This document shows, piece by piece, positions 3,389 to 21,186 of a stretch of 21,333 bases of DNA (its first letter is position 1; every line of letters begins with the position of its first letter). Under the pieces are notes generated by a model. That model ran no database searches, was not told where the DNA came from, and saw nothing but the letters and a program-made list of their open reading frames with translations. A program made the position numbers and the translations under genes. Source of the stretch: a virus; IMG/VR virus record IMGVR_UViG_3300025154_000408, positions 1-21,333 of that record; one strand, written 5' to 3'.

Positions 3389-3493
3389 ATGTCCGACACC
3401 GCTTTAGCTGAAATTGTCTGTCGCGCCCTGATAATGATTGTCAAGGCGATAATCAAGAAGTATGCGCTGAATATCAAGACGTTTAGCGAATAG
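3389..3493 (+). CDS. possible 34-aa protein, unknown
   Basis: A short frame starts at ATG 3389, one base after the preceding stop codon, and ends at TAG 3491-3493. The peptide (MSDTALAEIVCRALIMIVKA then IIKKYAL) is amphipathic and would form one helix with a hydrophobic face. The only ribosome binding candidate is AAGG about 12 bases upstream, which is distant, so expression would rely on coupling to the preceding gene. Tight packing supports it being real; its size and weak start context leave doubt. Confidence 0.4.
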   Translation: MSDTALAEIVCRALIMIVKAIIKKYALNIKTFSE

Positions 3494-3511
3494 CTGCCAT
3501 TTTGCATAATA
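3494..3511 (+). promoter_or_regulatory. promoter-like repeat, copy 1
   Basis: The 15-mer CTGCCATTTTGCATA (3494-3508) is followed by ATA, giving TTTTGCATAATA. CATAAT at 3505-3510 matches five of six bases of a sigma-70 -10 box, but no good -35 box lies 17 bases upstream. The identical 15-mer recurs at 21121-21135 in another intergenic gap. It marks the start of the only long non-coding stretch of the window. A phage-specific promoter or regulator site is inferred. Confidence 0.35.
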
Positions 3512-3691
3512 GGAGATTACTGACTTACTGGTTACGATGATTACATAAATAATCCTTGATGAGGTCGCGAAACTATCAACATTATTGAATCACACGTGAC
3601 GCTAGTTAGTGGAATCCGGGTGTGCGTCCCGGCAAGGATACGGATAACGAAGCACTCTTACGAAGTTATCTACTTATCAAGTGAAATTACT

Positions 3692-3832
3692 GTGTGTGCG
3701 GCGTGGTGGGAACACGTTAGGGTTACTACGTAACAGACGCAAAAAGAGTAACGACTCTTTCCCTAAAAACGCATGAGGCGAGTCACACAAGAGGCGAGCT
3801 ACTTCGATCAGGTTCAAATCCTGACACACACT
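3692..3832 (+). tRNA. tRNA-like structure with large insertion (degenerate tRNA-Val(UAC)-like)
   Basis: The 3' part is a perfect T-arm: TCAGG-TTCAAAT-CCTGA at 3808-3824, containing the B-box GGTTCAAATCC. The next seven bases (CACACAC, 3825-3831) pair fully with GTGTGTG at 3692-3698, leaving T3832 as discriminator; CCA is not encoded. A D-arm fits at 3701-3715 with one C-A mismatch. An anticodon arm fits at 3717-3733 (TTAGG / GTTACTA / CGTAA, one G-G mismatch, T33 present, anticodon TAC). T8 and A14 are not conserved, and 74 bases separate the anticodon arm from the T-arm instead of 4-20. It is therefore a decayed tRNA, an interrupted tRNA or a tRNA mimic, not an ordinary tRNA gene. Confidence 0.35.
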
Positions 3833-3840
3833 TTGTAATA

Positions 3841-3918
3841 ACAACCGAATAGCACCAAAGCCCCGCTATCCAGCCGCGCTTATTTTCCCAAGATGGGAGA
3901 GTAAGCGCTTTTTATTTT
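3841..3918 (+). repeat. duplicated leader/terminator element, copy A (upstream of scaffold)
   Basis: This segment resembles 14328-14406. The first 27 positions agree at 23, sharing the blocks ACAAC-GAATAGCA and AAGCCCCGCT. After that the sequences diverge, but both form an AGC-GCGC segment and then a long hairpin with a five-base loop and a T-run. Both copies lie a few bases upstream of the ribosome binding site of a highly expressed virion gene (here the scaffold at 3937). Similarity is read by eye. The role may be attenuation, RNA processing or a leader; this is inferred. Confidence 0.6.
3876..3918 (+). terminator. strong Rho-independent terminator A
   Basis: GCGCTTATTTTCCC (3876-3889) pairs along its full 14 bases with GGGAGAGTAAGCGC (3895-3908), with two G-U pairs and the five-base loop AAGAT. 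TTTTTATTTT follows at 3909-3918. This is a textbook intrinsic terminator, 19 bases before the scaffold start codon and 10 bases after the hairpin ends before its ribosome binding site AAGGAG region. Transcripts from upstream should mostly end here unless antiterminated, so scaffold and capsid expression needs read-through, an antitermination mechanism or RNA processing. Confidence 0.8.
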
Positions 3919-3936
3919 ATCTAAGGAGAATACGCA

Positions 3937-4476
3937 ATGACTGAAGAAACAAAGGCTACTGAGACAGTGGCAAAGATTGAAACCGAAGTCGTGACTGAGC
4001 CAGCCAAGACCGAGGTGACCACCGAAACAGAAATAGGCAAGGACGGGCAACCGTTTGACGCTGCCCGTGCAATGGCAACCATCGAAGCCCTACGAAAAGA
4101 GAATAGGGAATTGAAGCCGAAAGCGAAAAAGGCGGATGAGTTTGAGAAAGCCGAAGAAGACCGCAAAACAGCCGAGATGTCTGAATTGCAAAAGGCGCAA
4201 AAACTCATTGACGATCTGACCGCCAAGACCAAAGCCGCTGAACTGCGCGAACTACGCCGCAAGGTTGGTGAGGCTGCCAAAATACCCGCTGACATTTACG
4301 ACCTGCTCCCAGAGGGGACAGAGGACGAAATGAAGGCGAAGGCAGAAGCAATCGCAAAGGCTTTACCGAAACCACAACCAGGACTATCCGCAACGAATCC
4401 GGGCGCGTCAACAGGAACCGTCACAGACGAACAGCGCCGGGCATTCATTTACGGGAACGGTCCATTACCCAACTAA
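3937..4476 (+). CDS. capsid scaffolding protein
   Basis: This 179-aa protein is very charged (Glu, Lys) with low aromatic content. An extended Thr/Glu-rich N-terminus (~residues 1-45) is followed by a long coiled-coil-like region (~45-115, EALRKENRELKPKAKKADEF and beyond). A short C-terminal tail is rich in Pro and Gly. Composition, size and location immediately before the major capsid gene identify the assembly scaffold, which directs procapsid shape and is lost on maturation. The C-terminal segment would be expected to contact the capsid protein. The ATG has a strong AAGGAG seven bases upstream (3922-3927 region). Terminator A sits between this gene and the upstream genes. No protease gene is seen nearby, so scaffold may exit without cleavage. 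Confidence 0.85.
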   Translation: MTEETKATETVAKIETEVVTEPAKTEVTTETEIGKDGQPFDAARAMATIEALRKENRELKPKAKKADEFEKAEEDRKTAEMSELQKAQKLIDDLTAKTKAAELRELRRKVGEAAKIPADIYDLLPEGTEDEMKAKAEAIAKALPKPQPGLSATNPGASTGTVTDEQRRAFIYGNGPLPN

Positions 4477-6121: not shown

Positions 6122-8030
6122 AACACAAGCGAAAAGCACATTAACAACTGAAAAGAATCTGACTATTTCGTGGTTCTCAAACAGCCCTTTTTACGCTACC
6201 GGATATGGTTGTCAGACTAGATTGTTTGTACCGCGTCTGCAAAAAGCCGGATACAGCATGAGTATTTCGTCATTCGCGGGATTATCAGGACACACGCTTG
6301 ACTGGGTTGACGGGATAAAAATATACCCGAACGCGCGACACAGGTACGGTCAGGATGTGTTAGAACAACACGCTAAGACCGCAAAAGCAGACGTGGTTAT
6401 ATCCCTCATGGATGCGTGGGTGTGTGAGCCTGATCAGTTTCCTAATACGAAGTGGATACCCTGGTTTCCTATAGATTCTCACCCTATCACGACAGGGAAC
6501 GCAGAAGCCGTAAAGCAAGCGTATAAAAGAATCGTTATTTCAAAGCATGGCGCCAAGATGATGGATGATGCCGGGATGGATTATGACTATATCCCTCATG
6601 GCGTGGATACAGACGTATTCAAACCGCTTGACCGCTCCGAAGTCAGAGCCAAGATTGACTTCCCCGAGGATAAATTCATTGTTGGCATGGTCGCGGCTAA
6701 CGTAGGATTTCCCCCGCGTAAGGCGTTCGCTGAAAACATATCCGCATTCAAGATGCTGCATGACAAACACCCTGACACAATGCTATACCTGCATACCGCT
6801 GATGGTACGCGCGGCGAAGGGTTTGACATTCCCGCCTTCTGCCAATTCATAGGGCTGGAAATAGGCAAGGATGTAATTTTAGCCAACCAATACCATTACG
6901 CATCGTTGAGTTACCCGGATGGTGCAATGAACCTGCTTTACAACGCAATGGATGTGCACCTGTTGTGCTCAAAAGGTGAAGGGTTTGGAATTCCTATTTT
7001 GGAAGCGCAAGCGGCAGGCTGCCCGGTGATCGTTGGCGACTGGTCCTCAATGGGCGAGTTGTGCTTCTCGGGATGGAAACTTGACCGCGACACAGAAGCG
7101 GAGCCGGAATATACACAATACGGCGCTTATTGGTTTGTCCCTCACATTGGAGCTATTTATCAAAAGTTAGAGAATGCTTACCAGAAAAAAGGTAACAAAA
7201 TTTACCGCGAACGCGCCCGCGCGGGTGCAATGGCTTATGACGCAGATCTCATTGTTAAAGATTTCTGGGTTCCTTACCTCGATAAATTGGCAGAGGAAGT
7301 CCACGACCCCGTAAAGGGACACATGCACAAGTGGGGCAAGACTGGATTGTATAACCCTGATGGTTCCATGTCCGTTCCATGTTTAGGGTGCAATGACGAA
7401 ATGAAGGGTAACGAGATTATCAAAGACGGCTTCGCAAGTAATATCGGGCTTGACCTCGTACCTGATTCAGACGGCTTGACCAAGATTATCAGCCGCGAAA
7501 TTGAGAAGGATTACAAGTTAGACAACCTCGACTTGAAAGCCGGGGATGTGGTAATCGACATCGGAGCGCATAAAGGAATTGTCTCGTGTTACTTGGCTAA
7601 AAAGTATCCTGGTATCAAGGTAATCGCATTCGAGCCGAATGAAGAAAACTACAACGCCATGATTGAGAATATCGAGCGCAATAAATTAGAAGGTATCACC
7701 GCTGAATTATGCGCTATCACCAAGAATGGCAGGAACGTGACTGTTAGCACAGACAAGAATAACAGCGGCGGCGGGATGATATTCGATGGTGGTGAAGTAC
7801 CGTCTACCACGCTTGAAAACGTGTTCAAGACGTATGAGATTGACCGGGTTGCGCTTCTTAAGTCTGATTGTGAGGGAAGCGAATTCGAGATATTTGAAAA
7901 CGCGATTGACCTATTGAAACGCGTAGATGCTTTTCGCGGAGAAATACATAGGGGGGCTGGAGATGCGGACAAGTTGCTTGCGGCTATCAAACAGCGCGTT
8001 ACAAACACAATTGTTACCATTCAAGGATAA
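6114..8030 (+). CDS. GT4-type glycosyltransferase fused to FkbM-family methyltransferase
   Basis: A 638-aa two-domain enzyme. Residues ~10-390 resemble a GT-B glycosyltransferase of the GT4 type: an N-terminal NSPFYATGYGCQTRLF loop, then IPHGVDTDVFKP, and the nucleotide-sugar site E289-G-F-G-I-P-I-L-E297 (E-x7-E) followed by AQAAGCPV. A linker carries a CLGC pair (C423, C426). Residues ~470-638 form an FkbM-type S-adenosylmethionine methyltransferase: VVIDIGAHKG (480-488) is motif I, AFEPNEENY follows, and KSDCEGSEFE (D585, E587, E590) is the FkbM signature. The likely activity is sugar transfer followed by O-methylation. ATG 6114 is preferred to 6078 because it overlaps the upstream stop in typical coupled fashion. 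Acceptor unknown; virion protein glycosylation is one possibility. Confidence 0.85.
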   Translation: MTKTQAKSTLTTEKNLTISWFSNSPFYATGYGCQTRLFVPRLQKAGYSMSISSFAGLSGHTLDWVDGIKIYPNARHRYGQDVLEQHAKTAKADVVISLMDAWVCEPDQFPNTKWIPWFPIDSHPITTGNAEAVKQAYKRIVISKHGAKMMDDAGMDYDYIPHGVDTDVFKPLDRSEVRAKIDFPEDKFIVGMVAANVGFPPRKAFAENISAFKMLHDKHPDTMLYLHTADGTRGEGFDIPAFCQFIGLEIGKDVILANQYHYASLSYPDGAMNLLYNAMDVHLLCSKGEGFGIPILEAQAAGCPVIVGDWSSMGELCFSGWKLDRDTEAEPEYTQYGAYWFVPHIGAIYQKLENAYQKKGNKIYRERARAGAMAYDADLIVKDFWVPYLDKLAEEVHDPVKGHMHKWGKTGLYNPDGSMSVPCLGCNDEMKGNEIIKDGFASNIGLDLVPDSDGLTKIISREIEKDYKLDNLDLKAGDVVIDIGAHKGIVSCYLAKKYPGIKVIAFEPNEENYNAMIENIERNKLEGITAELCAITKNGRNVTVSTDKNNSGGGMIFDGGEVPSTTLENVFKTYEIDRVALLKSDCEGSEFEIFENAIDLLKRVDAFRGEIHRGAGDADKLLAAIKQRVTNTIVTIQG

Positions 8031-10770: not shown

Positions 10771-12617
10771 CAGAATTAATTGGTAAGAATTTATTGATAA
10801 ACTGGATTACGACAGGCGGGACTATCGACTTGAGCGGAGACTTTCGCGCGGTTGGTTATAACCCGTCTGTCAAACTGTTAAACATAACTACTGGTAGTGC
10901 TACATTTGAGGATTACCTGGTATTGACTAAAGATACAAAGGTTTCCTACCGTGGCGTGATGCAAACCACCGTAACTACTATTGAGGACTCGTTAGAAGCG
11001 GGCACGTTTGGAACATTGATAATCCAACCCGAGGGGACTATATCTTGTAAACGAAAATACACGATCCCTGCTTTTTCTCTGGGTGGTAATGTCAACTGGC
11101 CATTTGATGACACTGTAGAAATATCATGTGACTTCCAGGGAGCCGGAACCCCTACTATTAGCACCAACTACTTGGGACCGCTACTTGATTTATTCACAGG
11201 TGACGGTGGTCAAGTTGGCATTGAACGGGTTGGTACGTCCTACTGGTTGTACTCTCCAATTCAAGACGGAAGGTATCACGGGACAAAGCTCACTCCGTTT
11301 ACAGTTTCTGGGAAAACGGACATCGCGGTCTCTACAATGGAAGATCGTATTCCGATGGCATCAGTCAAAGACAATAATGCGACTTATGCAGTAAAAACAG
11401 GAACATGGACCAATGACGCTGCTCAAGCGCTTGCTTATGGTGGTACTTACAGTTTTTGCTTAACCGCAGGTGGGTATATCACATTTACCACTCCCGCGAA
11501 CGTCAAGAGGGTGGGTATAAGGCACGTGAAGACTACTAATGCCGGGCTTGTTCTAGTTTCGATTGACGGAGACAATACATTAGCGGATTTACTCTCAACC
11601 GCTCAAGATTTAGTGGACGCAGGAACGTTCCCGAATACTATCCTGGTGGCAAATGGCGGTACTCTCAATCCAACTGACAGGGTAATTGATATGTACTCCG
11701 CCGCCGCTGATTATGACGTGAAACTTAAACTTGCAAATGATTTAACGGCCGGTGTTCATACAATTGTATTGTCCTATACGGGGTATAAAAGAGACGCTTC
11801 AAGCGCCACTAGACTATACATTACCGGAATGTACTATAACGGTACATCAGTAACAGTCGCAACCGCCGGGATATTTATGGAAACCCAGCAATTAGTTGGC
11901 GCTGCGGCTGGCGCTTCGGTATATGAGGCTGTACAGCACATAAAACCAACAGGGGCGACCAATAGCGAGTGGGTAGGGCATGGTCACGGAAATACTGTAC
12001 TAAATTCAACAGTTATAACGGTGGATGGCGTTGCGGTAACTCCTGCCGACGGCAGTATTACGGCTGGCACTGTTATCTCGTTTGCAAGGAATTCCAGTCT
12101 GTATCATTCTGAGATTGGAGCCGGAGCAACCATAATTGGTACGTCTATTACTACGTACTATCCGACTGCTACCGAGGGATTGCGAATAACCACACAAACA
12201 ACTTGGGCGTTGGGTGGAGTCACAATAACAGTATATCCCGCCATGTTCCCAACTGGTATCTTTATGGAGAAGGGGGCTAATATAGCCCTGCCAGGACAAT
12301 CCGTAACGCTAAGCGCAGATGACGAATCGAAGGTAGTAAATGCCAAAAGTCCGGCAGGTTATGTTTATGATTCTGACGGGTATTATGCCGCGCTGCTTTA
12401 CACCCCTGACCTGGCGCTAAACGTTAGTGATTATTCCCAGATAACGGGCGGGTATTACTTATTCACTCAAGACAGATCTGTCGCAACATTCAACAAAATT
12501 TATCAGACAAAGATAGATAACGTTGTTCCGGTTGCGTATGCTATTGGCGAGGTCTGGAATTCCGATGCACAATGGCGAATATTCAGACGCGCTAATACGT
12601 TGACACTGCCACTATAA
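10767..12617 (+). CDS. tail-tube-like domain fused to large putative surface or adhesin region
   Basis: A 616-aa protein. Residues ~1-134 align almost end to end with the tail tube protein at 14428-14835 (roughly 60% identical by eye, sharing blocks such as KDTKVSY-GVMQ, TFGTLIIQPEGT, KRKYTIPAF and VEISCDFQG-GTPT). The remaining ~480 residues are Thr/Gly/Ala-rich, probably beta-sandwich domains, with no recognised family. The start codon overlaps the radical SAM stop (ATGA). The N-terminal domain could let the protein enter the tail tube or tail-end ring while the C-terminal part projects outwards as decoration or receptor-binding domain. An alternative is a minor head or neck fibre. The duplication is visible; the function is inferred. 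Confidence 0.7.
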   Translation: MTELIGKNLLINWITTGGTIDLSGDFRAVGYNPSVKLLNITTGSATFEDYLVLTKDTKVSYRGVMQTTVTTIEDSLEAGTFGTLIIQPEGTISCKRKYTIPAFSLGGNVNWPFDDTVEISCDFQGAGTPTISTNYLGPLLDLFTGDGGQVGIERVGTSYWLYSPIQDGRYHGTKLTPFTVSGKTDIAVSTMEDRIPMASVKDNNATYAVKTGTWTNDAAQALAYGGTYSFCLTAGGYITFTTPANVKRVGIRHVKTTNAGLVLVSIDGDNTLADLLSTAQDLVDAGTFPNTILVANGGTLNPTDRVIDMYSAAADYDVKLKLANDLTAGVHTIVLSYTGYKRDASSATRLYITGMYYNGTSVTVATAGIFMETQQLVGAAAGASVYEAVQHIKPTGATNSEWVGHGHGNTVLNSTVITVDGVAVTPADGSITAGTVISFARNSSLYHSEIGAGATIIGTSITTYYPTATEGLRITTQTTWALGGVTITVYPAMFPTGIFMEKGANIALPGQSVTLSADDESKVVNAKSPAGYVYDSDGYYAALLYTPDLALNVSDYSQITGGYYLFTQDRSVATFNKIYQTKIDNVVPVAYAIGEVWNSDAQWRIFRRANTLTLPL

Positions 12618-14319: not shown

Positions 14320-14327
14320 GATAAATG

Positions 14328-14406
14328 ACAACTGAATAGCAATCAAGCCCCGCTTTAGTAGCTGCGCCTGCGATTTACCGGAATGGTAACGTGGGCGTTT
14401 TTTATT
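14328..14406 (+). repeat. duplicated leader/terminator element, copy B (upstream of tail tube)
   Basis: This is the second copy of the element at 3841-3918, sharing 23 of the first 27 positions (ACAAC-GAATAGCA and AAGCCCCGCT blocks). The hairpin half has changed sequence while keeping a long paired stem and a five-base loop. It sits in the short gap between the tail terminator gene and the tail tube gene at 14428. Two copies in front of two abundant virion genes suggest a shared control role, which is inferred. Confidence 0.6.
14365..14406 (+). terminator. Rho-independent terminator B
   Basis: CGCCTGCG (14365-14372) pairs with CGTGGGCG (14390-14397), including two G-U pairs. After a two-base bulge TTACC (14375-14379) pairs with GGTAA (14385-14389) around a GGAAT loop, and TTTTTTATT follows at 14398-14406. 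The arrangement mirrors terminator A although the stem bases differ, so the structure seems conserved. It lies only 22 bases before the tail tube start codon. Confidence 0.7.
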
Positions 14407-14848: not shown

Positions 14849-15118
14849 ATGGGAGAGATAACGCTTAGCAACGGTGTAAACACGGTTATTGACGTTGGCA
14901 AAATTACCTGGGGAGAATGGACAAAATTTTTCTCAGGTAAGGGTACACACAAAGAAGATAACTTGTTCCTCGAAAAGTGTACCGGAATCAAAGCCGATGA
15001 ATTTGACCAAATGCTGCGGGATGATGTTCGTAGGATTGTCCAGTCAGTTCTAAAAGTTGGCAGTCAACCGTTGGCTGACCCAAAAAACTCTCAAAGCGCG
15101 TCTACCTCTCCCGAATAG
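14849..15118 (+). CDS. tail assembly chaperone, short form
   Basis: This 89-aa protein is the unshifted product of the tail assembly chaperone gene (gpG analogue). It sits between the tail tube and tape measure genes. The N-terminal ~70 residues are compact and helical (KITWGEWTKFFSGKG, IKADEFDQMLRDDVRRIVQS); the end is low-complexity (SQSASTSPE). In the lambda-like system the short form binds the tape measure. Ribosome binding site AAGGGG (14834-14839) is about nine bases upstream of the ATG. The gene contains the slippery sequence A AAA AAC near its end. Confidence 0.82.
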   Translation: MGEITLSNGVNTVIDVGKITWGEWTKFFSGKGTHKEDNLFLEKCTGIKADEFDQMLRDDVRRIVQSVLKVGSQPLADPKNSQSASTSPE

Positions 15119-21066: not shown

Positions 21067-21186
21067 TTGCTACGTTTGCGTACTAGTAGAATCCCGCGTT
21101 TACCTATACGATGGTGTTAACTGCCATTTTGCATACTATTCTAACGATGAATGAATGTGTACGATGGAATTGACAAGGAGCGATTA
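21067..21186 (+). promoter_or_regulatory. intergenic region with promoter-like repeat copy 2
   Basis: This 120-base gap holds the 15-mer CTGCCATTTTGCATA at 21121-21135, identical to 3494-3508. It also has two TACGATGG direct repeats (21107-21114 and 21160-21167) and a third AACGATGA between them. No terminator is visible after the holin-like gene. CATACT/TACTAT offers only a weak -10 box. The gap separates the lysis genes from the metallophosphoesterase gene, so a promoter or operator is inferred. Confidence 0.4.

Follow-up and report, generated by a model that had tools for sequence, protein, structure and literature searches.

A tRNA-like RNA on an inserted cassette of an uncultivated tailed phage, probably a previously uncatalogued class of phage tRNA mimic

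RESULTS

Gene content of the window

The window examined in this work, i.e., the whole analyzed stretch of 21,333 nucleotides (21.3 kb) from IMG/VR record IMGVR_UViG_3300025154_000408, is a portion of an uncultivated tailed phage that encodes an SPP1-like portal, a scaffold-like protein, and a major capsid protein, along with a Mu-F-like minor head protein whose match falls slightly under the Pfam cut-off. Its initial 10.4 kb are identical to a second record, IMGVR_UViG_3300025009_000241 (39.5 kb), in which the window start, the window end, and the insert at 3494-3840 are all present unchanged. A first-pass annotation had singled out a gene-free stretch ahead of the capsid genes as a candidate free-standing non-coding RNA of about 400 bases. 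The stretch is indeed gene-free, as no credible gene was found between the 34-amino-acid ORF that ends at 3493 and the gene at 3937. This short ORF gave no match in a Pfam search, and comparable short ORFs occupy its position in two relatives (L003 and L014). The features of the locus are collected in Table 1. Elsewhere in the window, two coding stretches of 150 nt (7651-7800 and 14851-15000) have unusually low folding z scores (-4.6 and -3.6, respectively).

Table 1. Features of the RNA locus and related elements (window positions unless another record is named)
Feature	Position	Strand	Evidence or remark
34-aa ORF	3389-3493	+	immediately 5' of insertion site
Inserted cassette, ~347 nt	3494-3840 (3' end approximate)	+	blastn and junction reading
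Promoter-like 18-nt repeat CTGCCATTTTGCATAATA, cassette start	3494-3511	+	recurrence in phage
Promoter-like repeat, second copy (17/18)	21121-21138	+	upstream of ORF at 21151
Promoter-like repeat, third copy	L024:1573-1590	same strand	17 nt exact from 5' end
Leader, ~180 nt	3512-3691	+	no relative found; folding not significant (z -1.2)
tRNA-like RNA core, 141 nt	3692-3832	+	covariance model R1, 83.9 bits (window copy itself belongs to the model's seed); covariation, 57 sequences
Acceptor stem, 5' strand GUGUGUG, 7 bp	3692-3698	+	pairs with 3825-3831
C8 G9	3699-3700	+	invariant, 57/57; not imposed by search patterns
D-like arm GCGUG - loop GUGGGAA - CACGU, 5 bp	3701-3717	+	covariation
Variable middle	3718-3807	+	possible UAGGG/CCCUA stem at anticodon-arm position; no canonical anticodon arm
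T arm UCAGG - UUCAAAU - CCUGA, 5 bp	3808-3824	+	descriptor search, covariation
Acceptor stem, 3' strand CACACAC	3825-3831	+	covariation
Terminator-like hairpin, 15 bp, then U-run	3876-3908	+	upstream of scaffold gene
Companion RNAs, abnormal middles	L093:4373-4490, L141:6126-6225	minus	tRNA-Leu-type D region
Companion RNAs, abnormal middles	L081:4562-4758, L181:1990-2100		tRNA-Leu-type D region

An inserted cassette at a variable site

Comparison with close relatives showed that most of the gene-free stretch is an insertion. In three relatives (L003, L004, and L018, the last from the same source metagenome as the window's twin record), ~10 nt stand in for ~347 nt of the window, and the flanks are 94% (3404-3492) and 92% (3841-3960) identical. 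In a further relative, the very site of the RNA cassette is occupied, on the opposite strand, by an N6/N4 DNA methylase gene (L014:3476-4300). Because the same position may hold a methylase gene, the RNA cassette, or nothing, it looks like a place of accessory-gene exchange, an apparent hotspot at which small accessory genes are gained and lost.

The downstream hairpin has a separate history. It is retained in L003, which is free of the cassette, and because it is present in relatives of this kind, we assign it to the capsid operon, i.e., to the phage backbone, and place it outside the cassette. The strong intrinsic terminator that the first-pass annotation had seen as the end of its RNA is thus real as a 15-bp hairpin with a U-run but is part of the capsid operon, and the proposed single unit of about 400 bases is composite, with the cassette spanning only 3494 to ~3840. 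Folding energies for the whole region (z of -3.98) were rejected as evidence for a structured RNA, since the signal derives from the terminator alone (z of -5.5, compared with only -1.3 for the insert at 3512-3840). The segment at 3841-3936, with hairpin, U-run, and ribosome site upstream of the scaffold gene, has counterparts in many relatives, where a comparable hairpin and U-run likewise precede that gene. A 71%-identical copy of this element lies at 14324-14406, upstream of the gene at 14383, and the element may serve structural genes as a conserved leader or as a partial terminator.

At its 5' end, the cassette opens with an 18-mer that has three close copies, and no others, in the 39.5-kb record, all of them intergenic and on one strand. 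The copy in L024 follows an HNH-like ORF and precedes a small membrane-protein-like ORF (both read by eye). The promoter-like repeat previously noted at this position is therefore confirmed as a repeat; in a -35/-10 scan, it was not scored as a sigma-70 promoter. We infer a promoter role from the repeat itself and its placement.

A family of tRNA-like RNAs

A descriptor combining the T arm, acceptor stem, and D-like arm was run on both strands of ~1.08 Mb of sequence and gave four matches: one tRNA, one weak site, the window, and a sister phage (G002) in which the copy occupies a different place in the genome. The two phage copies have GUGGUGGGAACAC in common, and their acceptor stems are fully compensated (GUGUGUG/CACACAC in the window versus CUGGCGG/CCGCCAG in the sister phage). 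A gapped pattern built from this pair retrieved 27 IMG/VR stretches, and looser patterns added more, with two covariance models (R1 and R2) used to separate true members from chance matches. Around 10 matches to a looser pattern were discarded as chance sites ahead of true tRNAs; a weak nhmmer match in L009 proved to be coding sequence. In all, the descriptor, the IMG/VR pattern scans, and the covariance model yielded 63 distinct members of 89 to 174 nt, each with a highly diverse, unalignable middle of 38 to 104 nt.

Evidence for the fold came from an alignment of 57 sequences, in which 97.8% of cells hold standard pairs and double changes are seen at 14 of the 17 pairs (7/7 in the acceptor stem and 4/5 in the D-like arm). 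The covariation score was 0.629 for these 57 sequences, compared with 0.141 after shuffling and no more than 0.107 with slid structures. In addition, RNAalifold, given the first 21 sequences, predicted the identical three helices (17 pairs) unprompted. Since the search patterns imposed most of the D-like loop and the T loop, conservation there is partly a product of selection, and the evidence for the fold rests on the unforced features: the acceptor stem, C8/G9, and an A preceding the T stem (54/57). As counted here, the core in the window extends one base past the acceptor stem, to U at 3832. That this RNA has a tRNA-like fold shared by a family is, in our estimate, nearly certain. Covariation in related phages thus bears out the tRNA-like fold suspected from the sequence, and the signal is strong enough to uphold the candidate non-coding RNA, which takes the form of a 141-nt tRNA-like unit in a ~347-nt cassette rather than an ornate RNA of 400 nt. 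An open reading frame at 3596-3733 that might have been coding is not conserved; it crosses the acceptor stem and D-like arm, both of which are conserved as RNA structure.

Within the variable middle, an extra arm whose 3' strand ends 1 to 3 nt before the T stem occurs in 40 of 51 nonredundant members, versus 17.4 in shuffled sequences; in the window, the 3' part of 3718-3807 corresponds to the region where this variable arm sits in most members. The long variable arm of class II tRNAs sits directly 5' of the T stem. A helix at the anticodon position across members is weakly supported. In two subfamilies, base pairing is possible between the anticodon-position loop and the variable-arm loop (read by eye), and each subfamily shows a single compensated change (L161 and L145; L140 and L172). 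A constant scaffold around so diverse a middle, together with this likely loop-loop pairing, would also fit a tRNA scaffold whose middle carries an antisense or guide segment with its own target in each phage, but the middle is mostly self-paired in predicted folds, and we consider such a role quite unlikely. In two members (L077:337-472 and L188:8888-9030), the middle itself holds another T-arm-like stretch or one that resembles an entire tRNA.

Distribution and genomic context

Members were found on diverse phage contigs of ~5 to 205 kb; most records hold one, and some two or three. Within the capsid family of the window, a member is present in five phages including this one, at a different place in each. 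Matches were also present in ~1% of sampled Chloroflexota genomes (3/301 and 4/400), the weakest of which resemble ordinary tRNAs; two of the three strong sites sit among phage-like replication genes. Among the isolates in the phage collection, no member could be confirmed: short-query BLAST matches to haloviruses HSTV-2 and relatives, Burkholderia KS10, Aurantimonas AmM-1, Mycobacterium Adawi, a fecal clone, and two plasmids were rejected as partial, none of them matching the model convincingly over its full length.

A recurrent neighbor gene was sought beside the members and not found, the contexts being many and unrelated. Because no gene recurs beside them, the distribution argues for an RNA that would act in trans. 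A tRNA gene lies near 10 of the 63 members (background, 7.8%), a modest association in which 1 of the 10 is a member itself called as a tRNA, and some members are only 2 to 6 nt from the adjoining tRNA gene. In L093, a DUF3800-VIII RNA (RF03075; L093:4303-4368, minus strand) lies between two tRNA-like RNAs; a general link to DUF3800 was rejected, as this RNA was present in 1 of 35 member phages and a DUF3800 protein gene in none of the 35.

These contexts bear on a reading in which the element is processing punctuation, with the tRNA-like fold serving to recruit RNase P and RNase Z, whose cuts in the operon transcript would define the ends of mRNAs. In MALAT1, a tRNA-like element directs such processing of the host RNA, the core in the window sits between two blocks of structural genes, and the members 2 to 6 nt from tRNA genes resemble co-processed arrays. 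Against this, members occur in many unrelated gene contexts, the D-like loop is conserved far beyond what processing would be expected to require, and in the window, the terminator already parts the core from the capsid gene. Processing punctuation is unlikely on this evidence.

Comparison with known RNA classes

Rfam searches of the window at gathering and relaxed thresholds gave two chance matches only, and no family in Rfam 15 matched the tRNA-like core. Group I intron models in Rfam likewise gave no match, and the middles of 38 to 104 nt are short for such introns. A literature search on the motif and the class, with preprints and most subscription papers outside its scope, found no description. 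Thus, the RNA probably represents a previously uncatalogued family, a new class of phage tRNA mimic.

The closest known relative is class II tRNA, specifically tRNA-Leu (RF00005). The core has the 7-bp acceptor stem and the 5-bp T arm with a TTCRANN loop that were used as a tRNA criterion, and the family further shares with tRNA-Leu the UUCRAAU T loop, an arm directly before the T stem, and a D region of similar length with ends like GGCG...ACGC. In contrast to tRNA-Leu, however, the family is without a canonical anticodon arm, has C8 in place of the usual U8, and combines a D-like stem of 5 bp that closes a fixed loop of 7 nt with the long middle. Neither the window nor the other members tested reached tRNA thresholds in Rfam or ARAGORN (best sub-threshold member, 24.6 bits against 29 for RF00005), with the single exception of a short member that ARAGORN calls as a tRNA of unknown anticodon. 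A canonical anticodon arm, defined as a 5-bp stem and 7-nt loop with U33 and a purine at position 37, was present in 3 of 63 members, compared with 1.9 expected in shuffled middles.

Neighboring companion RNAs, some up to 197 nt, have a tRNA-Leu-type D region (TGGCGGAAT.GGTAGACGC) and similarly odd middles, and one Chloroflexota genome holds an intermediate form. Because of this D region and this intermediate, descent of the family from tRNA-Leu appears likely. The same companions, occurring in the same arrays, could be taken to mean that the members are genuine tRNA genes that carry unusual introns or have decayed in sequence, and that they form no separate functional class, as could the short member that ARAGORN reads as a tRNA. 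We regard this as very improbable, given that the canonical anticodon arm occurs at chance frequency, that C8/G9 is invariant and the 5-bp D-like stem keeps its fixed loop across distant phages, and that decay would not preserve covarying pairs. Shortly upstream of the RNA in the sister phage (L072, ~11935-12005, minus strand) is a tRNA-like sequence that has an 8-bp hairpin at the anticodon position and no evident D arm (read by eye).

As in tmRNA, the tRNA-like core encloses other helices, and the extra arm close before the T stem is placed as helix 2 of tmRNA is. The family could accordingly be pictured as ribosome directed, either a tRNA-derived tmRNA analogue for rescue or a ribosome-binding regulator, with the variable middle as its working part. 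Members are nevertheless much shorter than tmRNA (89 to 174 nt) and have a true D-like stem, searches with ARAGORN and Rfam found no tmRNA, and the unalignable middles show no shared tag reading frame by eye, all of which leaves a ribosome-directed role with little probability.

Among the large phage RNAs, GOLLD and ROOL are phage encoded, have no assigned function, and at times lie near tRNA genes (PMC12286853), properties that the family shares. Family members differ from them in fold and in size (about 90 to 170 nt, compared with several hundred), and the Rfam models for GOLLD and ROOL gave no match, in agreement with the earlier impression by eye. Phage tRNAs that counter tRNA-cutting defenses are also known (PMC11555353, PMC10264068). 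Like the family, they are phage encoded, tRNA shaped, and accessory, and they are often altered in the anticodon loop; unlike it, they decode and replace cut tRNAs, a task for which the family lacks a canonical anticodon arm.

DISCUSSION

Taken together, the observations are best explained, we think with somewhat better than even confidence, by a mobile cassette that encodes a non-decoding, trans-acting, tRNA-derived phage RNA, most likely a tRNA mimic. To our knowledge, non-decoding tRNA-like RNAs are few, and no family of them backed by covariation is known to us from tailed phages. In the mechanism we propose, the cassette would bring its own promoter-like repeat, from which transcription may start, and the ends of the RNA would be processed by tRNA enzymes. 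The RNA keeps the acceptor stem, D-like arm, and T arm of a class II tRNA, with a large variable insert replacing the anticodon and variable arms, and could thereby show an enzyme that binds tRNA the expected elbow and acceptor while having no usable anticodon. Such a mimic might plausibly distract or block a host enzyme that acts on tRNA, e.g., a tRNA-targeting defense nuclease.

The function of a tRNA mimic or decoy, taken by itself, is our best guess and a tentative one. Conservation falls on the portions by which enzymes that bind tRNA hold it, and the portion used in decoding is absent; one tRNA-cutting defense is reported to cleave a tRNA variable loop (PMC13096335). No specific enzyme partner is evident, because the acceptor sequence and the base following it vary freely among members; the D-like loop, being almost invariant, points to a dedicated partner. 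Nor is the decoy role tied to any enzyme, because no isolate with a known host or defense system carries the RNA. Equally provisional is a more detailed form of the mimic reading, namely, a trans-acting class derived from tRNA-Leu that would have given up decoding and in which a locked elbow and a self-paired anticodon/variable region would capture or block a tRNA-binding host protein, on small, promoter-bearing cassettes that are gained and lost.

The anomalous gap in the window is explained as an accessory RNA cassette. If the family is what it seems to be, a structured RNA class found in phages of several kinds would be added to those known. It would also provide a specific candidate for an RNA that interferes with tRNA biology in the course of infection, a question that the covariance alignment would make testable.
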